DNA from: Acidobacteriota bacterium
GTDB taxonomy: Bacteria; Actinomycetota; Acidimicrobiia; Acidimicrobiales; RAAP-2
NCBI GenBank assembly: GCA_018970215.1
Contig: JAGWWX010000011.1
Span: forward strand, 1-33,276
Direction: 5' to 3'
DNA length: 33,276 nt
Made by a program: the position numbers and the translations under genes. The first letter of the stretch is position 1. Every line of letters starts with the position of its first letter. This document shows positions 753-27,471 of the stretch, one piece after another. The notes under the pieces were generated by a model, which was given only the letters and a program-made list of their open reading frames with translations, had not been told where the DNA came from and ran no database searches.

Positions 753-1697
753 TTAGAGTTTGAGAAGCGCGGCGAGCCCTTGCCATACGTACTCGGAATA
801 TCGCCTATTGATATGCCATCGATCGGCGTACACCAATGTTCCATCAACTTGAACGGGGCATATGGTTGCTGCGGTAACCGATGAGCTCGTGCAGAACAGC
901 GACAGGGTGTTGATGGTTGGAACCTTGGCCGCGGCCGCGGCCTGGTCATCGGCATCCTTTGCCGTTCTGATAAACCCCGCCGAGGCGGGAAAGTTACATT
1001 TGGTAGAAGTTCGAGAATTTTGACTCAGACATGTCGCTGCGTCAATCGGGTCGACGGGCGCCGGCTCGATAAACGCAACCGTTGCTCCGGCGGCTTTTAG
1101 TTTGGAGTAGAAAGTTTTCATCGCCGATATCCACTCCGTCGACGTGACTGGGTGACCCGAGGCCGTGACAGGATTACGGTTTTGCTGGACAATAAAAACC
1201 TGGGGCTTTTGCAGATTCTTGATGAAATCTACGGCAGCGGACCGGAAAACGGCACACTGTGGATCAACCGCTCCGGTCCATGACTTGAGAATGATGCCAT
1301 GAAGGTTGCACCCGATTCGTGCGAGGAGTATCACATGGAACTGATGTGCCCGACCTGCAGCGTCAAAGGCCGGAAGCCACATGGCGGCCGTGGAGTCTCC
1401 GAGTAAAACGACAATTTTTTTGGCACTCACGGCACCGAAATCACACTGAGAGAACTGATTTCCTGGTGTGGACTGCTCCTGGAAACAAGGGCCGTCCTTA
1501 TAACTTGACCGTTGCGCCGCCTGAATCTGAGAAGCAAGGTTGACTTTTGTGGGTGTCGTCGTCGCAGTCTTGATTTTGATAGCTAACTGCTGTGCAGTCG
1601 GAGCAGCGCTAACCGCCGAAGCCGTCACCGGAAGTGCAAGACCAAACACGACGATCGCAAAAAAAGAAAACTTGGGTCTCAAATACGTCCGGCCCAA
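753..1697 (-). CDS. Secreted SGNH-hydrolase-like protein (GDST variant), fourth paralogue
   Basis: The 314-residue protein starts with a basic, hydrophobic signal peptide (about residues 1-31, probable cleavage after VSA). The mature part resembles the extracytoplasmic SGNH domain found fused to acyltransferase-3 (OafA-like) membrane proteins, here without the membrane domain. VVLLGDSTAAMW carries the nucleophile motif (Ser102) and DRWH gives Asp292/His295. Eight cysteines occur in the same order as in the three tandem paralogues at 23685-26691. Unlike them it keeps the canonical GDS motif. The start is uncertain: TTG at 1695-1697 follows AGAAAGG (1708-1714) by 10 nt, but an in-frame TTG at 1680-1682 is also possible. 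It lies 221 nt downstream of the GT87 gene. Likely an esterase or acetyl-transfer enzyme on cell-surface glycans (inference). Confidence 0.7.
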   Translation of the reverse strand: MGRTYLRPKFSFFAIVVFGLALPVTASAVSAAPTAQQLAIKIKTATTTPTKVNLASQIQAAQRSSYKDGPCFQEQSTPGNQFSQCDFGAVSAKKIVVLLGDSTAAMWLPAFDAAGRAHQFHVILLARIGCNLHGIILKSWTGAVDPQCAVFRSAAVDFIKNLQKPQVFIVQQNRNPVTASGHPVTSTEWISAMKTFYSKLKAAGATVAFIEPAPVDPIDAATCLSQNSRTSTKCNFPASAGFIRTAKDADDQAAAAAKVPTINTLSLFCTSSSVTAATICPVQVDGTLVYADRWHINRRYSEYVWQGLAALLKL

Positions 1698-15882: not shown

Positions 15883-17163
15883 TTAGGCGGTGGGGTAGTT
15901 CGCCCGGCTCCGACGCCCATCGAGCCAGAGAGCAACCGCCATGAGTGCAACGACGTCGAGGCCAAGGCGATATCGCCAGTGACCCACGAAGACCCCTGCG
16001 AGTGCCATCGAGAACAGCGCCGTGAGGACGAAGAGGCGACGAGCGAGCCGTTCATCCCCCATCGCCCGACGCCGACGTTGCCACAACGCCCAAAGGAAAC
16101 TTGGGAATAATAGGTAGCCACCCACCGCTTGAGCCCACGACGCCCACACTCGTTGGCCGGCACCCTTCGACATGTAGACCACCCAGTTGGGACGATAGAG
16201 ACCGAAGAACCACGCTTCGCGCGCGGCGACCACGATGGGCCAACGGGCGATGTGCGTCGTGGCGTACTCCCAGGCATCTCGGGTCATCCCACTGGAACGA
16301 ACAGACTCGTCAAGTGAGGGATGCGCCTTGGCGGCTGCCGACCAACATCCCAAATCGTCGTAGCCGATGAATCGACCGTCGTAGTACGCGAGATGGCAGT
16401 TTGCTCCGGCGAGCGTGATGCCCAGATTTGTTGACAGGTAGACCGGCTTCTCAAAGCGTCCCTGGTTATAGACCACCCACGGTGCACACACAATTCCCGC
16501 GACACACAACACGGCAAGTCCTCGCAGAACCGGAATGCTCTCCCGGTACCACCACCACGACACCACCACCACGATGAGGGCCAACGCAAGTAGTTCGGCA
16601 CGCGCCAAGGCCACCATGGCGACTAAGACTCCAAGGAACAACGTATGGCGCCATCGCCGTTCGGACTTCCAGTTGGGAAGAAGGGCGAGTAGCCACACGA
16701 ACGCCGCAATGGCGAAGGGCTCTGATACCACCAAACCGTCGCGCACCCAGAGGCCCGGGTAGGCGGACGCCAATCCCGCCGCGATGAGGGCGGCCCGATC
16801 ACTACCGCTGACCCGTCGAACGAACGTTGCAATACCGAGAATTGATACGGTACCGACGAAGGGAATGAGATAGCGCAGTCCCGTCATTGCATTGGGGAAG
16901 AACCACGCGAACGGCGCAATGGCCACTGAAACGAGTGGCCCGTGGGAGGCGGAGGGGATATCGGTATTGAAAATACTCGACCACGGATGACCGTCAACGA
17001 GGCGATGCGCCTGGGTCATGTACCAGTGTTCATCGGACCAGATTCGAAGGGGGCGTTCAAAAGGAACGTACACGAGACGCCACAACAGACCGACGAGCGC
17101 CACGGACACGAGTTGTCGGCGATACGACCACGAGTTCCACGCGGAGAGAAGCCGTTGTCTCAC
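15883..17163 (-). CDS. GT39/ArnT-like polytopic membrane glycosyltransferase
   Basis: 426 residues with about ten hydrophobic segments. Residues 42-56 (WSDEHWYMTQAHRLV) place an acidic Asp-Glu pair (44-45) in the first outer loop, as in GT-C enzymes of the PMT/ArnT group (Dolichyl-P-mannose mannosyltransferase-like) that use polyprenyl-phosphate sugars. The C terminus ends in a basic tail. Start GTG 17161-17163 is supported by TAAGAT exactly 6 nt upstream; no Shine-Dalgarno sequence is seen. It lies 40 nt after clpB and 40 nt before purA, so it probably heads the purine transcript. Substrate is unknown. Confidence 0.75.
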   Translation of the reverse strand: MRQRLLSAWNSWSYRRQLVSVALVGLLWRLVYVPFERPLRIWSDEHWYMTQAHRLVDGHPWSSIFNTDIPSASHGPLVSVAIAPFAWFFPNAMTGLRYLIPFVGTVSILGIATFVRRVSGSDRAALIAAGLASAYPGLWVRDGLVVSEPFAIAAFVWLLALLPNWKSERRWRHTLFLGVLVAMVALARAELLALALIVVVVSWWWYRESIPVLRGLAVLCVAGIVCAPWVVYNQGRFEKPVYLSTNLGITLAGANCHLAYYDGRFIGYDDLGCWSAAAKAHPSLDESVRSSGMTRDAWEYATTHIARWPIVVAAREAWFFGLYRPNWVVYMSKGAGQRVWASWAQAVGGYLLFPSFLWALWQRRRRAMGDERLARRLFVLTALFSMALAGVFVGHWRYRLGLDVVALMAVALWLDGRRSRANYPTA

Positions 17164-21154: not shown

Positions 21155-21669
21155 TATCCCTTGACACGCACCATCGCGGGACGAACGATGGCGCCCTTCC
21201 ACTGGTAACCCGCTCGCATTACGTCGTCAACGACTTGTTCGCCGTCGCCGTCAACGTGTGCCACGGCGTCGTGAATTGTGGGATCGAAGAGTGCACCGAC
21301 TTCATCAATACGAGTGAGCCCTTCTTTCGCCAGAGTGTCGAGCAACAAACTTCGTGCCTGCACCAGCGCTTTGGACTCGACAGTGTCCAGTTCGTCGGTA
21401 GAGGCGGCCCCAAAGTGAGCTTGCGCTAAATCCAGGGCATCGAGAACGGGGAGTAGTTTGGCCACCACTTCAGCCACGGATCGAGCAACAACTTCATCAG
21501 TCGTTCGCGCTACCCGCTTGCGGTAGTTCTCGAAGTCGGCTTGAAGACGTTGGAGGGCGTCGCGAAAGTCATCGCGTTCGCGCTCCGCATCACTCCTCTC
21601 GTCGAGCACGGCTTCCGACGGATCAATATTTTCAGCATCGGATGAGAGTTTGTTAACTTCTTCGGTCAC
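21154..21669 (-). CDS. grpE: GrpE nucleotide-exchange factor
   Basis: 171 residues. It releases ADP from DnaK. The acidic N terminus, a long coiled-coil with [22 protein letters not shown] (about 40-60), [12 protein letters not shown] and the C-terminal beta-domain end [16 protein letters not shown] match the family. Start GTG 21667-21669 overlaps the dnaK stop TGA 21666-21668 (GTGA), so its synthesis is coupled to DnaK. Confidence 0.94.
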
Positions 21670-23486
21670 TTCTCGTCCACAATCTCAGCATCAACAATCG
21701 TGTCGTCGTCCGCATTACCACCAACGGAACCTTCACCCGAATTATTCTTCGCGGCCTCTTCGTAGAGTCGCTGACTAAAGCTCTGGCTGACGCCCACGAG
21801 CTTCTCCGTCGCACTCTTGACGGCGTCACTGTCGTCTCCGTTGAGCGCTTCCTTCAAGGCGGTCAGTTCTCGTTCAACATCGTCACGCTCTGATCCCTGG
21901 AAGCTTTCGCCCTGTTCCTTCAACAACTTCTCGGTCGAGTACACGAGGCTGTCGGCCTGGTTACGAATTTCAGCTTCCTCACGGCGCTTGCGGTCATCCT
22001 CCGCGTGCGCTTCGGCGTCACGGACCATGCGGTCAATGTCGTCCTTCGACAGACTTGATCCGCCCGTGATTGTCATCGATTGCGTGGCTCCGGTCGCTGT
22101 GTCTTTGGCCGATACATGCACAATGCCGTTGGCGTCGATGTCGAAGGTGACCTCAATCTGCGGCACGCCCCGCGGGGCGGGTGGAATACCAACGAGTTGG
22201 AACTTGCCCAGGGTCTTGTTGTAGGAAGCCATCTCACGCTCACCTTGCAGAACGTGGACTTCCACGGACGGCTGATTGTCGTCGGCCGTTGTGAAGGTCT
22301 GGCTCTTCTTCGTCGGGATGGTCGTATTACGTTCAATGAGCTTCGTCATGACGCCACCCTTGGTCTCGATACCGAGCGAGAGCGGGGTGACATCGAGGAG
22401 CAGAATGTCCTTGACATCGCCCTTTAGTACGCCCGCTTGGATGGCGGCACCGACGGCCACTACTTCGTCGGGATTCACGGTCTTGTTGGGCTCCGTCCCT
22501 GTGAGCTTGCTGACCAGCTCTTGCACCGCAGGAATACGAGTCGAACCACCGACCATAATGACGTGATCAATCTTGTTCAGCGTGAGACCAGCGTCTTTAA
22601 TCGCCTGATCGAAAGGCTTGCGGCAACGCTCTACCAAGTCGGCCGTGAGTTCATTGAACTTGGCTCGAGTGAGCTTCAGATCCATGTGCTTCGGGCCATC
22701 ATTGGTCGCGGTAATGAATGGAAGATTGATCTGCGTTTCTTGCAAGCTCGATAGCTCAATCTTCGCCTTCTCGGCTGCCTCCTTCAAACGCTGCTCGGCC
22801 ATCTTGTCCGTCGACAGATCGACACCCTCGGTGTCCTTAAACGACTTAATGAGCCACTGCATGATGGCCTCATCCCAGTCGTCACCGCCGAGGTGTGTAT
22901 CACCGGCCGTTGACTTCACCTCAAAGACTCCATCCGCGATTTCGAGAACGGAGACGTCAAAGGTTCCACCACCGAGGTCAAAAACGAGGATTGTCTGTTC
23001 GGCGGATCCCTTGTCAAGGCCGTATGCGAGTGCGGCGGCTGTTGGCTCGTTAACGATGCGGAGTACTTCCAACCCGGCAATCTGTCCCGCCTCTTTTGTC
23101 GCCGTACGTTGTGCGTCGTCGAAGTACGCCGGAACGGTAATGACTGCCTGAGTTACTGGTTCACCGAGATAGGCCTCAGCGTCTCGCTTGAGCTTCATGA
23201 GCACGCGCGCAGAGATTTCTTGTGGGGTGTACTTCGTGCCATCAATATCAATCGACCAGGACGTACCCATGTGCCTCTTGACCGATCGGATCGTTCGGTC
23301 GGGGTTCGTAATTGCCTGGCGCTTCGCGACTTCACCGACTAACACCTCGCCGGTCTTCGAAAAGCCCACGACCGAAGGGGTCGTCCGAGCGCCTTCTGAA
23401 TTGGGGATGACAATGGGTTCGCCGGCTTCCAAGATGCTGACGACTGAGTTGGTGGTTCCGAGGTCGATTCCGACTGCCTTCGCCAT
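21666..23486 (-). CDS. dnaK: Molecular chaperone DnaK (Hsp70)
   Basis: 606 residues, full length though at the short end. The ATPase domain shows [65 protein letters not shown] and [13 protein letters not shown]. The substrate domain includes [16 protein letters not shown] and the C terminus ends in the acidic [14 protein letters not shown] tail recognised by co-chaperones. ATG 23484-23486 has AAGGAG (23495-23500) in good position. First gene of the chaperone operon; the promoter overlaps a HAIR-like operator. Confidence 0.98.
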
Positions 23487-23547
23487 GTTCTGTACTCCTT
23501 ACGGGTAATTTCCCAGTATTTCTGGTCTTTTCCTGTATGCAGTAATA

Positions 23548-23578
23548 AGTATAGCAAACTTGATAAGACTTGTGTCAA
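23548..23578 (-). promoter_or_regulatory. dnaK operon promoter
   Basis: On the minus strand TTGACA (23573-23578) and TATACT (23548-23553) are spaced by 19 nt, with TG one base before the -10 (extended -10). The -35 overlaps one half of the HAIR-like repeat. The expected start near 23541 gives a leader of about 55 nt with a good ribosome-binding site. Confidence 0.7.
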
Positions 23579-23582
23579 GTTT
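23556..23582. promoter_or_regulatory. HAIR-like operator for HspR
   Basis: AAACTTGA (23556-23563) and TCAAGTTT (23575-23582) are a perfect inverted repeat. The core CTTGATA-N7-TGTCAAG (23559-23579) has the spacing of the HAIR consensus CTTGAGT-N7-ACTCAAG and matches 10 of its 14 positions. It covers the -35 of the dnaK promoter, and hspR is in the operon. Confidence 0.8.
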
Positions 23583-23648
23583 ATTTCTAATTGGAATAGG
23601 AAGTTTTGACCCATTCCGAACCACCAAAACACCCAAACACCGCCCGAC

Positions 23649-23658
23649 TCGCCGGCGA
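23649..23658. repeat. 10-bp palindrome TCGCCGGCGA near the SGNH gene start
   Basis: A perfect palindrome whose right edge is 13 nt upstream of the putative -10 of the first tandem SGNH gene, about where a -35 would be. It could be an operator for that gene; chance occurrence cannot be excluded. Confidence 0.3.
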
Positions 23659-23671
23659 TAGTCGTCATTGT

Positions 23672-23677
23672 TATCGT
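23672..23677 (+). promoter_or_regulatory. Putative -10 element of the tandem SGNH genes (TATCGT)
   Basis: TATCGT, 7 nt, then ATG 23685. The only purine-rich stretch (AAAGG) is one base from the ATG, too close for a ribosome-binding site, so a leaderless start is likely. Confidence 0.4.
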
Positions 23678-23684
23678 CAAAGGC

Positions 23685-24695
23685 ATGGTTTGGACTTCTC
23701 GACCCGTCCGGCGATGGTCCGGCCTTGCGATCGTCGGTCTCCTGCTCGTCAGTTGGTTGCCACGGGCTGATGGCGCCACTCCTGTCACCTCCACCAGCCT
23801 GCAAAGCCAGATTCGGGCTGGCGTGTCTACGAAGTCCCCGGGGACCGTGCTGCCCTCCCCCAAGAGCGTTCTCAAGGGTCCGGCCTGGAGTTTTGTGGGC
23901 AATACCTTGGTGACAAATAGTTGCAACCCCCGCCAAACCCCCAGCCTGATTTCGCAACCGAAGCCTTGTAGCTTCGGCAACCCTCGAGCCAAGAAAACGG
24001 TCGTGTTGGTGGGTGCCTCACATGCCGGCATGTGGATGCCCGCATTCAAATCAATGGCGTCAACGGACTTTTATCAGTTCAAGGCATTTATCTACGCAGG
24101 ATGTCCCCCACTGCTCGTTGATTTCAGTTCACCACCGTTTGACCGCGATAGTAAGTACGTCACAGCCACGCAGTGCGCGACCTGGAATGCAAACGTCGCC
24201 ACCGCCGTGAATGCCCTACACCCCGACGCCGTCATTTTTGCGGGTGGAAGCCAGTCGATGACATCTGATCCCGGCGTACTGAATCAGTGGGTAGTAGGTA
24301 TGAGTGCGTTTATTAATTCATTCACGGTATCGAAGAAGATCATCATCGGATCAACGCCCGTCTTAAACATCACCACAGAAATGGCAAAGTGCGTTAGCCA
24401 AAACCCGTCAAACGTTGCGACCTGCAATACGACTTATAACTCAACCAGCAACACCGATGTCACGAAGCTCCTCTTGGATCGTGATGTTCAAGTCGCCGCC
24501 GCGACAGGCGCTTCGCTCGTTCCTGTGATTTCACTGGTCTGCACACCAACAACTAGTGCAACACCCATCGGTACGTGCCCTGCGGTTATCAATCACAATC
24601 TTGTGTATGTCGACGATAATCACCTCACCGCAGTTTTTGTCACGTACGTCACCCCCGTTTTTCGTGCCCTGATCAACATTCCGCTAAAAAGCTAA
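23685..24695 (+). CDS. Secreted SGNH-like protein, tandem copy 1 (GASH variant)
   Basis: 336 residues. A signal peptide covers about 1-30 (basic start, hydrophobic core, end near ADG-A). VVLVGASHAGMWMPAF has Ser112 at the nucleophile position but Ala instead of Asp before it. DDNH near the end supplies Asp310 and His313. Eight cysteines, arranged in pairs through the mature chain, match the other three copies and suggest four disulfides. The fold is like the SGNH domain attached to OafA-type acyltransferases but stands alone here. An in-frame stop upstream (23658-23660) and lack of other codons support ATG 23685. Divergent from dnaK. Probable extracellular esterase or acyl-transfer protein on glycans; activity is unproven. 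Confidence 0.7.
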   Translation: MVWTSRPVRRWSGLAIVGLLLVSWLPRADGATPVTSTSLQSQIRAGVSTKSPGTVLPSPKSVLKGPAWSFVGNTLVTNSCNPRQTPSLISQPKPCSFGNPRAKKTVVLVGASHAGMWMPAFKSMASTDFYQFKAFIYAGCPPLLVDFSSPPFDRDSKYVTATQCATWNANVATAVNALHPDAVIFAGGSQSMTSDPGVLNQWVVGMSAFINSFTVSKKIIIGSTPVLNITTEMAKCVSQNPSNVATCNTTYNSTSNTDVTKLLLDRDVQVAAATGASLVPVISLVCTPTTSATPIGTCPAVINHNLVYVDDNHLTAVFVTYVTPVFRALINIPLKS

Positions 24696-24701
24696 ACCGC
24701 T

Positions 24702-25676
24702 GTGAAATTTAAGGTCTTCGTAGCCGCATTGGTATTTCTATCGATGTCGACAACTATGGCCGGCGCCGAGATCCGTTTGACGAGCGAAAGTCTTGCTCAA
24801 GAAGTAGCCGACGCCGCACAACAAAAGGTTGTGGGTGCAGTCCTGCCACCCTTAGAAACGGTGCTTTCCAGCCCGCCAGGCACGTACACCGCCAGTAACT
24901 CTTTGCCTAAATCATGTAGTGCTCGCTACAACGTGGCGTTAATTGCCAGCCCGAAGCCCTGCACCTTGGGCGACGCCACCAGTGCAACCACCGTCGTTCT
25001 CGTGGGCTCCTCCCACGCCGGCATGTGGAGCCGAGCTCTCGGGAAAGTGGCGTTAGACAACCACATCGCCCTGAAGACTTTCATTTACACCAGTTGTGTT
25101 CCACTCATTCTTCCGACACCAGTACAGGCGTTTCAGCCCGATGATCCCAAGATTTCCCCTACAACGTGTGCAACATGGAACGTTCGTGTCGGCAAAGCCA
25201 TTGATGCCCTCCGACCCGCTGCAGTCATAATCGGGAGTGGCACCGAATTCGACATTTCCGGTGAGGCGTACAGTCAATGGGTCGCGGGTTTGACGGCATT
25301 CGTTGACTCAATTCACGCCAGCCGGAAGTACATTTTGGGTAGTTCGCCCCGCGTCACGACTCCTGGCGAAGTTGCCCGTTGTCTTCTCAACAATCAAACA
25401 AACCCAACCAACTGTGCGACGCGGGTAGACCTTCGTCGGCTCCTCGATCCGACGACGGCACTCTTGCGAGCTGACCGAGTTGTCGCCAAGACAACAGGAG
25501 CAGAACTGCTCGACGTCACTCCGCTTCTGTGCGCACCGAAATCAACAGGATCGACCACGCTCATCTGCCCCGGTGTCATTGATGGACGCCTGGTCTACGT
25601 CAACGGGTCGCATCTAACGCTCGGCTTCACTAACCACGTACAGTCGGTATTCCAGTCAGTGATGGCGAGGGTGTGA
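24702..25676 (+). CDS. Secreted SGNH-like protein, tandem copy 2 (GSSH variant, Asp lost)
   Basis: 324 residues from GTG 24702-24704, 6 nt after copy 1. The signal peptide is about 1-22 (cleavage near AGA-E). VVLVGSSHAGMW puts Ser104 at the nucleophile position with Ser replacing the usual Asp. In the C-terminal block the sequence is NGSH: Asn301 stands where the catalytic Asp would be, with His304 kept. The eight cysteines are all present. This is the most diverged active site of the four, so it may be catalytically weak or a binding protein. Ribosome-binding site is poor; translation is probably coupled to copy 1. Confidence 0.68.
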   Translation: MKFKVFVAALVFLSMSTTMAGAEIRLTSESLAQEVADAAQQKVVGAVLPPLETVLSSPPGTYTASNSLPKSCSARYNVALIASPKPCTLGDATSATTVVLVGSSHAGMWSRALGKVALDNHIALKTFIYTSCVPLILPTPVQAFQPDDPKISPTTCATWNVRVGKAIDALRPAAVIIGSGTEFDISGEAYSQWVAGLTAFVDSIHASRKYILGSSPRVTTPGEVARCLLNNQTNPTNCATRVDLRRLLDPTTALLRADRVVAKTTGAELLDVTPLLCAPKSTGSTTLICPGVIDGRLVYVNGSHLTLGFTNHVQSVFQSVMARV

Positions 25677-25677
25677 G

Positions 25678-26691
25678 ATGCGGAGTACCCAGCGGCAAAT
25701 TCGTTCAATCGTGAGCGGTATTTTTCTCATCGGAACCATATACGCATCATCGATAGCGAGCGCCGCACCTGCACCCGTTTTGACTGCCGAGCAGCTCGCC
25801 AGCCAGATTTCTGGTGCAAGTCGTAGTAATTCCGTCGGAGCAATTCAACCGACTCTCAAAGAAGTCTTGGCCAAGCCCGCGTGGACATTTGTGGGCCTCG
25901 ATCGCTTAGATGTTGGTTGTAATCCACGTCTCGCAACGTGGATTGTCGACAACCCCATTCCTTGCAACTTTGGGCCAAGTTCCGCAACCAAGACAGTGGT
26001 ACTCGTGGGCGCATCCCATGCGGGCATGTGGCTTCCTGCACTGATTGCCATGGCGGCTCAGGACAAGTTCCAGCTGAAGTCGTTCATCTACGCCGGCTGC
26101 CCGCCCGTCATCATGGACTTCACCACCGGTCTCATCAAGTTCGAAGGATTAGTGGTTTCAGCAGCATCGTGTCACGCGTGGAATGAAAATGTTGCATCCG
26201 CAATCAATGCGCTTCACCCTGACGCCATCTTGATTGGTGGAAGTACTGAAGCAGCAACAAGTGTGCCGTCGACCTTTACGGCGTACGCCGACGCGATGTC
26301 TGACTTTGTGACACGCTTAAGTGCGCCAAAAAAAGTAATTCTGGGTTCAACGACAATGCGGACGGCAGGACAGGAAACCGCACGCTGTGTCAACAGTCAT
26401 CTCACTACTGTCACGGCATGCAACGCGGTCTATAACGGCAGCAATACGAATGATCCAACAATGCTCTTGTTACGTCGTGATCAATTGGTCGCCAAGTCGA
26501 CTGGTTCGCGCCTCGCTCCGCTGATCTCACTCACGTGCACGCCGTCCACGAAGATGAAGCCACTTGCCCAGTGCCCGCCGGTTGTGAACCACAAGTTGGT
26601 TTATACCGACCGCAGTCACCTGTCGAGTGCCTATGTCACCTACGTCACCCCGGTCTTTCGATCCCTTGTCAATGCCGAGCTCACGCCATAG
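25678..26691 (+). CDS. Secreted SGNH-like protein, tandem copy 3 (GASH variant)
   Basis: 337 residues from ATG 25678, one base after the TGA of copy 2, with GAGG about 7 nt upstream. The signal peptide is about 1-30 (IASA cleavage region). VVLVGASHAGMWLPAL has Ser113; DRSH gives Asp311/His314. Segments such as IYAGCPPV, WNENVASAINALHPDAILIGGS and YVTYVTPVFRSLVN are close to copy 1, so these two appear to be the most recent duplicates. All eight cysteines are kept. Same functional reading and limits as copy 1. Confidence 0.7.
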   Translation: MRSTQRQIRSIVSGIFLIGTIYASSIASAAPAPVLTAEQLASQISGASRSNSVGAIQPTLKEVLAKPAWTFVGLDRLDVGCNPRLATWIVDNPIPCNFGPSSATKTVVLVGASHAGMWLPALIAMAAQDKFQLKSFIYAGCPPVIMDFTTGLIKFEGLVVSAASCHAWNENVASAINALHPDAILIGGSTEAATSVPSTFTAYADAMSDFVTRLSAPKKVILGSTTMRTAGQETARCVNSHLTTVTACNAVYNGSNTNDPTMLLLRRDQLVAKSTGSRLAPLISLTCTPSTKMKPLAQCPPVVNHKLVYTDRSHLSSAYVTYVTPVFRSLVNAELTP

Positions 26692-26706
26692 TGGATTTGC
26701 ACTTAC

Positions 26707-26712
26707 TACGCT
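26707..26712 (+). promoter_or_regulatory. Putative -10 element of gpmA (TACGCT)
   Basis: TACGCT, 6 nt, then ATG 26719, in the 27-nt gap after the third SGNH gene. No Shine-Dalgarno sequence is present. It is identical in hexamer and spacing to the purS element. Confidence 0.45.
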
Positions 26713-26718
26713 AAGAAC

Positions 26719-27471
26719 ATGCCGCAGCTAGTTCTCATGCGCCACGGGCAATCTGAGTGGAACGTTGCCAATCTCTTTACCGGTTGGCATGATGTCGACC
26801 TTACGGCACAAGGAGAAGCGGAGGCAAAGGCGGGAGGCAAACTTCTCGCCGACGCTCAACTTGACCTTCGACTCGTCCATACATCGGTACTAACACGGGC
26901 AATTCGCACCGCCAATATCGCCCTCCACGCCGCCGGACGTTCGTGGCTCACCGTCGAGCGGTCCTGGCGTCTCAACGAACGCCACTACGGCGATCTCACC
27001 GGGAAGGATAAGAAGCAGACGGCGGAAGAGTTCGGGATGGAGCAACTCAAGCTGTGGCGACGGAGTTTCGATGTGCCGCCCCCCGCCATGGCCGCCGACG
27101 ACCCTCGAGTGGTGCATCACGACCCGCGGTATCGCGACGTCCCGTTGTCGTCGCTCCCTTTCACGGAGTGCTTGAAAGATGTTGTGGTGCGGGTCGAGCC
27201 GTATTTCCGCGACGCAATCGCCCCCTCTTTACAACGCGAAGGTGCGAAGGGCGGCGCGATCTTGGTCGTCGCTCACGGGAATTCACTGAGAGCCTTACGG
27301 ATGATGATGGAGGGCATCAGCCCCTCCGACATCACCGAACTCGAAATTCCCACCGGAATTCCCTATCTTTACGAACTCGATGACGCTCTCGCCGTCACGA
27401 GCGGCCGCTACCTGGGAGACCCGGCGGCTGCGGCGGCTGCGGCGGCAGCCGTAGGAAAACAGGCGGGCTAA
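26719..27471 (+). CDS. gpmA: 2,3-bisphosphoglycerate-dependent phosphoglycerate mutase
   Basis: 250 residues. It interconverts 3- and 2-phosphoglycerate in glycolysis and gluconeogenesis. LVLMRHGQSEWNVANLFTGWHDVDLT carries the phospho-histidine motif RHG, followed by LNERHYGDLTGKDK, and VVAHGNSLRAL gives the second catalytic His. The C terminus has nine consecutive Ala codons (27424-27450) in a GCGGCTGCG repeat, a flexible tail seen in other actinobacterial versions. Probably leaderless. Its TAA overlaps the potC TAG on the other strand (4 nt shared, convergent). Confidence 0.95.
   Translation: MPQLVLMRHGQSEWNVANLFTGWHDVDLTAQGEAEAKAGGKLLADAQLDLRLVHTSVLTRAIRTANIALHAAGRSWLTVERSWRLNERHYGDLTGKDKKQTAEEFGMEQLKLWRRSFDVPPPAMAADDPRVVHHDPRYRDVPLSSLPFTECLKDVVVRVEPYFRDAIAPSLQREGAKGGAILVVAHGNSLRALRMMMEGISPSDITELEIPTGIPYLYELDDALAVTSGRYLGDPAAAAAAAAAVGKQAG
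27424..27450 (+). repeat. 9-nt tandem repeat coding for poly-alanine in gpmA
   Basis: Two copies of GCGGCTGCG followed by a diverged third (GCGGCAGCC) encode nine Ala residues close to the GpmA C terminus. Such a tract can change length by slippage in steps of three residues without a frameshift. Confidence 0.7.

Follow-up and report, generated by a model that had tools for sequence, protein, structure and literature searches.

Genes of the Array

The stretch of DNA analyzed here, 33,276 nucleotides of contig JAGWWX010000011.1 (assembly GCA_018970215.1; hereafter the window), carries a tandem array of three genes, and a fourth copy elsewhere, for proteins that consist of an SGNH domain of Pfam family PF19040 and lack the AT3 membrane domain to which such domains are commonly fused. 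We consider it probable that these proteins are the secreted SGNH modules of a split AT3/SGNH O-acyltransferase of surface glycans, acting in trans with an AT3 partner. The genes and the borders of the array, the latter named by sequence recognition, are as follows.

23685-24695, plus strand: tandem copy 1; 336 aa; stand-alone PF19040 SGNH protein with a secretion-type N-terminus; block I GASH, block V DDNH.
24702-25676, plus strand: tandem copy 2; 324 aa, GTG start; PF19040 SGNH protein; block I GSSH, block V NGSH (Asn for Asp).
25678-26691, plus strand: tandem copy 3; 337 aa; PF19040 SGNH protein; block I GASH, block V DRSH.
753-1697, minus strand: fourth copy; 314 aa, TTG start; PF19040 SGNH protein; block I GDST, block V DRWH.
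21666-23486, minus strand: dnaK, the left border of the array.
26719-27471, plus strand: gpmA-like phosphoglycerate mutase gene, the right border of the array.

The three tandem open reading frames (ORFs) are intact and abut one another on the plus strand between dnaK and gpmA. The best matches to the GpmA protein (67-73% identity) are from metagenome-assembled genomes labeled Acidimicrobiaceae, Actinomycetes, or uncultured actinobacterium, a few being labeled Acidobacteria; some appear to derive from bog and palsa soil and others from lakes. An initial annotation had described these genes and the one at 753-1697 as encoding stand-alone secreted SGNH-like proteins; the reading frames agree with that description, and all four products belong to PF19040. 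The window proteins are apparently secreted, judging by eye and by a crude hydropathy rule. Hydrophobic stretches of the secretion type were recognized by eye in 27 proteins, and 91 of 109 stand-alone frames satisfied the crude rule.

Family, Motifs, and Cysteines

A profile search, one of the checks that the initial annotation had suggested, placed all four proteins in PF19040, "SGNH domain (fused to AT3 domains)," with scores of 76.9-82.1 bits, the Pfam cut-off being 27. This was the sole significant match in their 314-337 residues. At E values up to 1, Pfam gave no AT3 domain in any of the four proteins and did not list PF04311 (DUF459/PatB) for any copy; the other match at this level was a single chance zinc-ribbon (E 0.55) in the fourth copy. 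A sequence search of the PDB with copy 1 returned one chance match (E 0.54), and a scan of genome contigs with copy 1 as the query found no relative.

The block I serine and the block V histidine are present in all four copies, and the block V aspartate (DxxH) is kept in copies 1, 3, and 4 and is asparagine in copy 2. To see these motifs in context we aligned 114 PF19040 domains, 8 of them AT3-fused, from 24 genomes (23 of the genus and 1 of a sister genus); genomes, contigs, and loci are cited below by handles beginning with G, C, and L, G000 being the window's own genome. The serine is kept in 111 of the 114 domains (105/106 of the stand-alone ones) and the histidine in 110 of the 112 that reach that region (104/104 of the stand-alone ones). 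The serine is missing from a stand-alone protein (G374) and from two related fusions (G000 C19 and G387 C2). Of the rows that reach the histidine, only these two fusions lack it, two rows ending before that position.

The tandem copies do read GASH, GSSH, and GASH at block I, as first reported, with GDST in the fourth copy, but the analysis did not support this altered motif as a special class. The 111 serine-bearing domains comprise 97 with GDS, 7 with GNS, 5 with GSS, and 2 with GAS, so that 14 lack the block I aspartate, and 3 of these 14 are AT3-fused. At block V the aspartate is replaced by asparagine in 11 of the 114 domains and by glutamate in 3. On this alignment, GAS or GSS at block I is a mild variant and not a special class.

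Each window protein has exactly eight cysteines, which align in the order originally described. Each of the eight columns holds cysteine in 111-114 of the 114 domains. Because AT3-fused relatives share them, the cysteines are not distinctive of the window genes, and the alignment identifies them as a family trait common to the AT3-fused members. Of the landmarks given for them, the IYxGC motif reads IYTSC in copy 2 and is absent from the copy at 753-1697, where the WN segment is FR. The residue preceding the third cysteine is glycine in 70/114 domains, as an alignment column, the position of structural block II not being fixed. In OafA the conserved cysteine pairs that were mutated are C383/397, C439/453, and C567/572 (PMC7448272, Table 2). 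By order, three of the four pairs of the window proteins would correspond to these, the additional pair lying in the middle of the chain. On the block V aspartate, the same table gives about 10% of the signal as retained by the OafA D587A variant. A water-coordinating aspartate, replacement of which raised the activity of Staphylococcus aureus OatA (PMC9487903, section 10), would have a bearing on the GAS and GSS variants only if it is the aspartate of GDS, and nothing is drawn from it.

Predicted Fold

AlphaFold2 models of copies 1 and 2, built from 26-sequence alignments, had a mean predicted local distance difference test score (pLDDT) of 89.5 and 90.3, respectively. The structure ranked first by Foldseek for the copy 1 model was 6se1, the periplasmic domain of Salmonella OafB (E 2.4e-7). 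In VIA-align comparisons with 6se1 the copy 1 model gave a Z-score of 18.5 (3.2 Å over 239 residues, model positions 58-335) and the copy 2 model a Z-score of 18.3 (3.5 Å over 242 residues). The second-best structural match was Campylobacter PatB, with Z-scores of 14.2 for copy 1 and 14.6 for copy 2. The range aligned with OafB takes in the SGNHext extension, which constrains the choice of acceptor in OafB (PMC7448272, section 10). Copies 1 and 2 are thus predicted to have an OafB-type SGNH fold plus the extension, and the SGNH fold expected in the initial annotation is borne out by the models of these two of the three tandem copies.

Association with AT3 Genes

In the 99 available genomes of the genus, at least 11 of the 90 clusters of stand-alone SGNH genes have a stand-alone AT3 gene no more than 1.5 kb away, as against 0.42 expected from uniform placement, a model that ignores the clustering of glycan genes and shared ancestry. 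Same-strand SGNH-AT3 pairs are separated by 4-11 bp, counted from the first possible start codons, at L072, L074, L086, L088, and L110. At L109, three tandem SGNH genes are divergent from an AT3 gene, a parallel to the window array. Ten of the ten neighbors tested at L072, L074, and L110 matched families connected with glycans. At L072 these neighbors make up eight of nine other ORFs (a flippase-like fragment, four GT2, two GT4-type, and one GH26-like); L110 has one GT2 neighbor and L074 one GH26-like neighbor. A further AT3 gene, at L116:2808-3965 on the plus strand (G340 C99), stands downstream of two SGNH genes and appears broken over two frames, and this twelfth cluster is left uncounted; the break may be an assembly artefact, as there are ambiguous bases at the locus.

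The association is also seen at the level of whole genomes. AT3 was found in 23/23 genomes with PF19040 and in 59/76 of the others, with a mean number of 3.48 versus 1.14, fused AT3s included. A stand-alone AT3 is listed for each of the 21 genomes with a stand-alone PF19040 gene. When genes of the DUF459/PatB family (PF04311, below) are added, AT3 occurs in 55/55 genomes with a stand-alone PF19040 or DUF459 gene and in 27/44 others (Fisher P 1e-7, in a test that ignores the relatedness of the genomes). The set of 55 leaves out G332 and includes G370 by virtue of DUF459 only, the sole PF19040 match of each being an AT3 fusion. For the window copies themselves, the candidate partners would be the AT3 proteins encoded on contigs C59 and C119 of their own genome.

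DUF459 Proteins and the Search for MBOAT

DUF459 accounted for seven of the seven tested neighbors of AT3 genes fetched mainly from genomes without PF19040 (one of these seven genomes, G009, also has PF19040). The family is present in 46/99 genus genomes, at 56 places. At least 43 of these places lie within 800 bp of a listed AT3 gene, 42 of them convergent with it, where about 0.10 would be expected; such convergent pairs occur genus-wide, for example at L259, L262, L264, L265, L266, L269, and L273. Among the AT3s listed, none is linked to both PF19040 and DUF459. DUF459 was not found in the window's own genome. There, the AT3 gene of C59 (L054) has a PF19040 gene in the convergent place that DUF459 holds elsewhere, and PF19040 occupies that place at L054, L089, and L115.

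The pairing of AT3 with DUF459 is not general outside the genus. No AT3 was found in the short flanks of 28 DUF459 loci from outside it, sampled across the phylum, four of which are shorter than 2.7 kb, the test being an own-built profile run on cut ORFs. Nine of ten hydrophobic DUF459 neighbors tested, picked from 17 listed loci outside the genus, were MBOAT proteins, and one had no match. MBOAT (PF03062) was detected at E 1e-5 in 0/99 genus genomes, the window's own included, many of these assemblies being incomplete, and in 3/14 control genomes. A separate SGNH protein in this genus thus appears to have exchanged an MBOAT partner in the membrane for AT3, as would be expected if AT3 can feed separate SGNH proteins.

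Copy Number, Splitting, and Origin of the Array

The window's own genome (1.54 Mb in 119 contigs, 97.8% complete) has 13 PF19040 places, including one AT3 fusion and one fragment at a contig end. PF19040 is present in 23 of the 99 genus genomes and absent from 76. Seven genomes (G000, G015, G098, G344, G374, G385, and G387) have 7-15 places each, and the remaining sixteen have 1-4. Thus copy number varies by lineage, as first surmised. The seven amplified genomes, of which G344 is only 65% complete, have a mean size of 1.56 Mb versus 2.07 Mb for the other 92.

Of 118 PF19040 places listed for the genus, 106 are in frames shorter than 520 aa and 12 in longer frames; the short frames include at least one fusion truncated where its contig stops (G370), as well as a single gene that appears in pieces as two rows (G098 C5). 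A survey of the whole order covered 298 genomes, 87 of them with a PF19040 match at E 1e-10, and 150 places among the matches listed. Among these, frames shorter than 520 aa made up 24/25 in the window's own family versus 13/125 in other families, where contig ends truncate some of the 13; the other 112 were longer. Both domains were confirmed in all seven long frames from other families that were tested (L024, L025, L027, L032, L039, L040, and L045). Because short frames dominate in this lineage and fusion-sized frames elsewhere in the order, the splitting of PF19040 proteins is concentrated in this lineage.

A tree built from the 114 domains unites the tandem copies in one group (support 1.00) with long branches and with no member from another genome; the fourth copy stands apart from them and groups, at a support of 1.00, with a protein of G015. 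Identity to copy 1 is 36% for copy 2 and 45% for copy 3. The junction of dnaK and gpmA was examined at 42 loci, at least two pairs of which are probably from the same genome, and both genes were seen in 36. None of the 36 junction loci of relatives had an SGNH or AT3 match between the two genes, and the tandem array was found in no other sampled genome. Because the junction lacks SGNH genes in relatives and its content varies, it is probable that the array was acquired at this site, which the sequence comparison marks as variable.

The gap at the junction is about 200 bp in many relatives and otherwise holds different, apparently envelope-related genes according to species (window 23487-26718; L189, L190, L192, L199, and L210). 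The gap ORFs, listed for nine loci, were identified by inspection of their sequences with no family test; in some relatives they appear to encode a membrane glycosyltransferase-like protein, a secretion-type serine-hydrolase-like protein, or small secretion-type proteins.

Thirteen pairs of orthologs from G098 and G385 (12 stand-alone, 1 fused) gave ratios of nonsynonymous to synonymous substitution (dN/dS) of 0.03-0.22, which are rough, as dS was 0.8-1.9. In these two relatives the genes are maintained by purifying selection; the result covers relatives only, the window copies having no close ortholog. One PF19040 gene of G098 (C5; L126:4331-5463, minus strand) is split across two overlapping frames and is probably broken or affected by a sequencing error.

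AT3 Tree and a Probable Two-domain Pseudoenzyme

AT3 sequences were compared in quick FastTree trees with midpoint rooting, from which L167, L168, L270, L271, and L272 (PF01757 matches) are absent, having been missed by the AT3 profile. The stand-alone AT3s of the genus fall among AT3-SGNH fusions, a placement that is as expected after a split. Those linked to PF19040 occur in one group of thirteen, as L054 with L115, and as L113 beside fusions. Nine of the thirteen are linked to PF19040; the other four (L263, L274, L275, and L276) had been added as AT3s without a listed SGNH neighbor. The sister group of L054 and its counterpart in G387 comprises fourteen stand-alone AT3s and has a support of 0.96. 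DUF459 adjoins thirteen of the fourteen, the exception being the AT3 of C119 in the window's own genome.

Of the 55 AT3 sequences, all keep the R-X10-H motif but four: L056 and L158, which are fusions, and L116 and L102, which are partial rows. Complete PF19040-linked AT3s keep it, with scattered changes at other conserved columns. L056:7251-9353 (minus strand, own genome C19) and L158:4314-6476 (minus strand, G387) are related intact AT3-SGNH fusions. Both have lost the AT3 histidine of R-X10-H (leucine in C19), other conserved AT3 residues, and the SGNH serine and histidine. Because both halves have lost key residues, the two fusions are probably, to judge from these substitutions, a conserved two-domain pseudoenzyme. 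The idea that the C19 fusion, with its dead SGNH half, uses the stand-alone copies in trans was rejected, as its AT3 half is degraded too. Two other AT3 proteins of the same genome, of 691 and 671 aa (L164:1972-4044 on C46 and L165:694-2706 on C72, both minus strand), have C-terminal regions of ~300 residues with zero Pfam matches at E 0.01.

Proposed Function and Alternatives

In the mechanism that we propose, a stand-alone AT3 membrane protein would take an acyl group from cytoplasmic acyl-CoA and present it outside; the secreted SGNH protein would accept it on the block I serine and transfer it onto a hydroxyl group of a sugar in a surface glycan, the N-terminal extension (SGNHext) contributing to the choice of acceptor. 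With the chain split and the SGNH half multiplied, several acceptors or positions would probably be served from few AT3 donors. Our confidence draws on what was computed, namely the family, the fold, the near-invariant serine and histidine, selection in relatives, the expansion, the AT3 linkage in relatives, and the failure to find MBOAT; from these we infer secretion, acyl transfer, which AT3 serves the window copies, the acyl group, and the glycan.

Several observations weigh against this proposal. No AT3 was found in the window, and the link of these copies to a partner is by family only. Seventy-nine of the 90 stand-alone clusters lack a listed AT3 as a neighbor, none was found at the stand-alone loci fetched from G015 and G098, and 78 of the 150 AT3s among the matches listed are stand-alone and linked to neither type of SGNH gene. 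The expectation used for the linkage, as stated above, takes no account of glycan gene clustering or common descent. The PF19040-linked AT3s are in three places in the tree and not in one clade, and several relevant nodes have support of 0.56-0.93 or none. Tandem copy 2 carries asparagine at the block V aspartate, and both models also match esterases (Z 11-14). Finally, AT3-only proteins are common, which, a review argues, strongly indicates that AT3 is able to work alone (PMC9558356).

Some of these points would suit secreted carbohydrate O-acyl esterases that remove acyl groups, acetyl or other, from glycans of the cell itself or of its environment, an explanation that we regard as unlikely but that deserves the most attention of the alternatives. 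The proteins are SGNH proteins with serine and histidine, their models match esterases at Z 11-13 (among them peptidoglycan O-acetylesterases, sialate esterases, and a CE2 enzyme), and most stand-alone clusters, among them every stand-alone locus fetched from G015 and G098, have no listed AT3 as a neighbor. However, the structure matched best, domain and extension alike, is that of a transferase, PF19040 takes its name from AT3 fusions, the AT3 linkage in relatives is far above the uniform expectation, and every one of the 21 genomes with stand-alone PF19040 has a listed stand-alone AT3.

It is quite improbable that the proteins are non-catalytic glycan-binding or structural surface proteins in which only the fold has been kept. 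The block I aspartate is gone from the three tandem copies and the block V aspartate from one, and a probable two-domain pseudoenzyme exists at C19 of the same genome; nevertheless, the conservation of serine (105/106) and histidine (104/104) in stand-alone domains is as expected of an enzyme. The initial annotation had offered glycan de-acylation or a structural role. Acyl transfer appears likelier than either because of the linkage of AT3 to PF19040 and to DUF459 genes, the failure to find MBOAT, and the near-invariant serine and histidine.

We give still less credit to the array being an amplification of little functional consequence that is headed for decay. It was found in no other sampled genome, and the junction loci examined have no SGNH genes; yet identity to copy 1 is as low as 36% for copy 2 and 45% for copy 3 while all three remain open with their serine, histidine, and eight cysteines, and dN/dS is 0.03-0.22 in relatives. 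That the partner is an MBOAT protein, as for PatB with PatA, would fit PatB being the second-best structural match and the known pairing of separate SGNH proteins with MBOAT (PMC12148441) but is barely credible, being already contradicted by the finding of PF03062 (E 1e-5) in 0/99 genus genomes versus 3/14 control genomes.

Extending the proposal of a split acyltransferase, we suggest tentatively, as a possible though doubtful generalization, that AT3 donors are shared in this lineage and supply acyl groups in trans to a large, diverging set of exchangeable secreted PF19040 modules, together with DUF459 modules that switched to AT3 from MBOAT. The outcome would be a code of surface acylation that is combinatorial and varies by lineage.

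Relation to Known Systems

The AT3-SGNH fusions OafA, OafB, and OatA resemble the window proteins in the SGNH domain and its Ser-His active site, and OafB also in the extension; by analogy, the chemistry is probably the same. OafA has three cysteine pairs alike by order, whereas the window proteins have the extra middle pair. The fusions carry both steps on one chain; the window proteins have no AT3 on the chain, a secretion-type N-terminus of their own, and many copies per genome. PatA/PatB and other pairs of MBOAT with a separate SGNH protein likewise consist of a membrane acyl carrier and an SGNH transferase, as the present system would. They differ in that its partner would be AT3, MBOAT being found in none of the 99 genus genomes, and its SGNH proteins have no DUF459 match. 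The DUF459/PatB family (PF04311) has a separate-chain SGNH protein, in the genus mostly convergent with AT3, but is a different Pfam family and outside the genus stood beside MBOAT in 9/10 neighbors tested.

Stand-alone AT3s such as Oac, WecH, and TmaT (PMC9833829 and PMC9558356) are alike in having AT3 with no SGNH domain on the chain, but differ in that in part of this genus an SGNH gene adjoins the AT3 gene. A stand-alone AT3 may, according to one source, have a partner still to be found (PMC9833829), the question is raised in a review that holds that AT3 can probably act alone (PMC9558356), and a 2025 paper gives two bacterial layouts, MBOAT with a separate SGNH protein or AT3 fused to SGNH (PMC12148441). 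In the accessible portions of the open-licence literature searched, we found no account in which an AT3 gene forms a pair with an SGNH gene of its own.

If the wider generalization is true, AT3 with a separate SGNH protein would be a third architecture beside these two and would supply the partner of at least some stand-alone AT3 proteins. AT3-SGNH fusions need both halves for transfer, and the question addressed here is how stand-alone AT3s finish the reaction. With AT3 genes of this genus adjoining separate SGNH genes from two families, the question of the partner becomes testable on defined pairs. These environmental bacteria with small genomes would also offer a natural experiment in how a small number of acyl donors could supply numerous surface modules, each specific for its acceptor.

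Elsewhere in the window, a 426-aa ORF (15883-17163, minus strand) that has zero Pfam matches at E 0.001 lies between genes for adenylosuccinate synthetase and a Clp-type ATPase.

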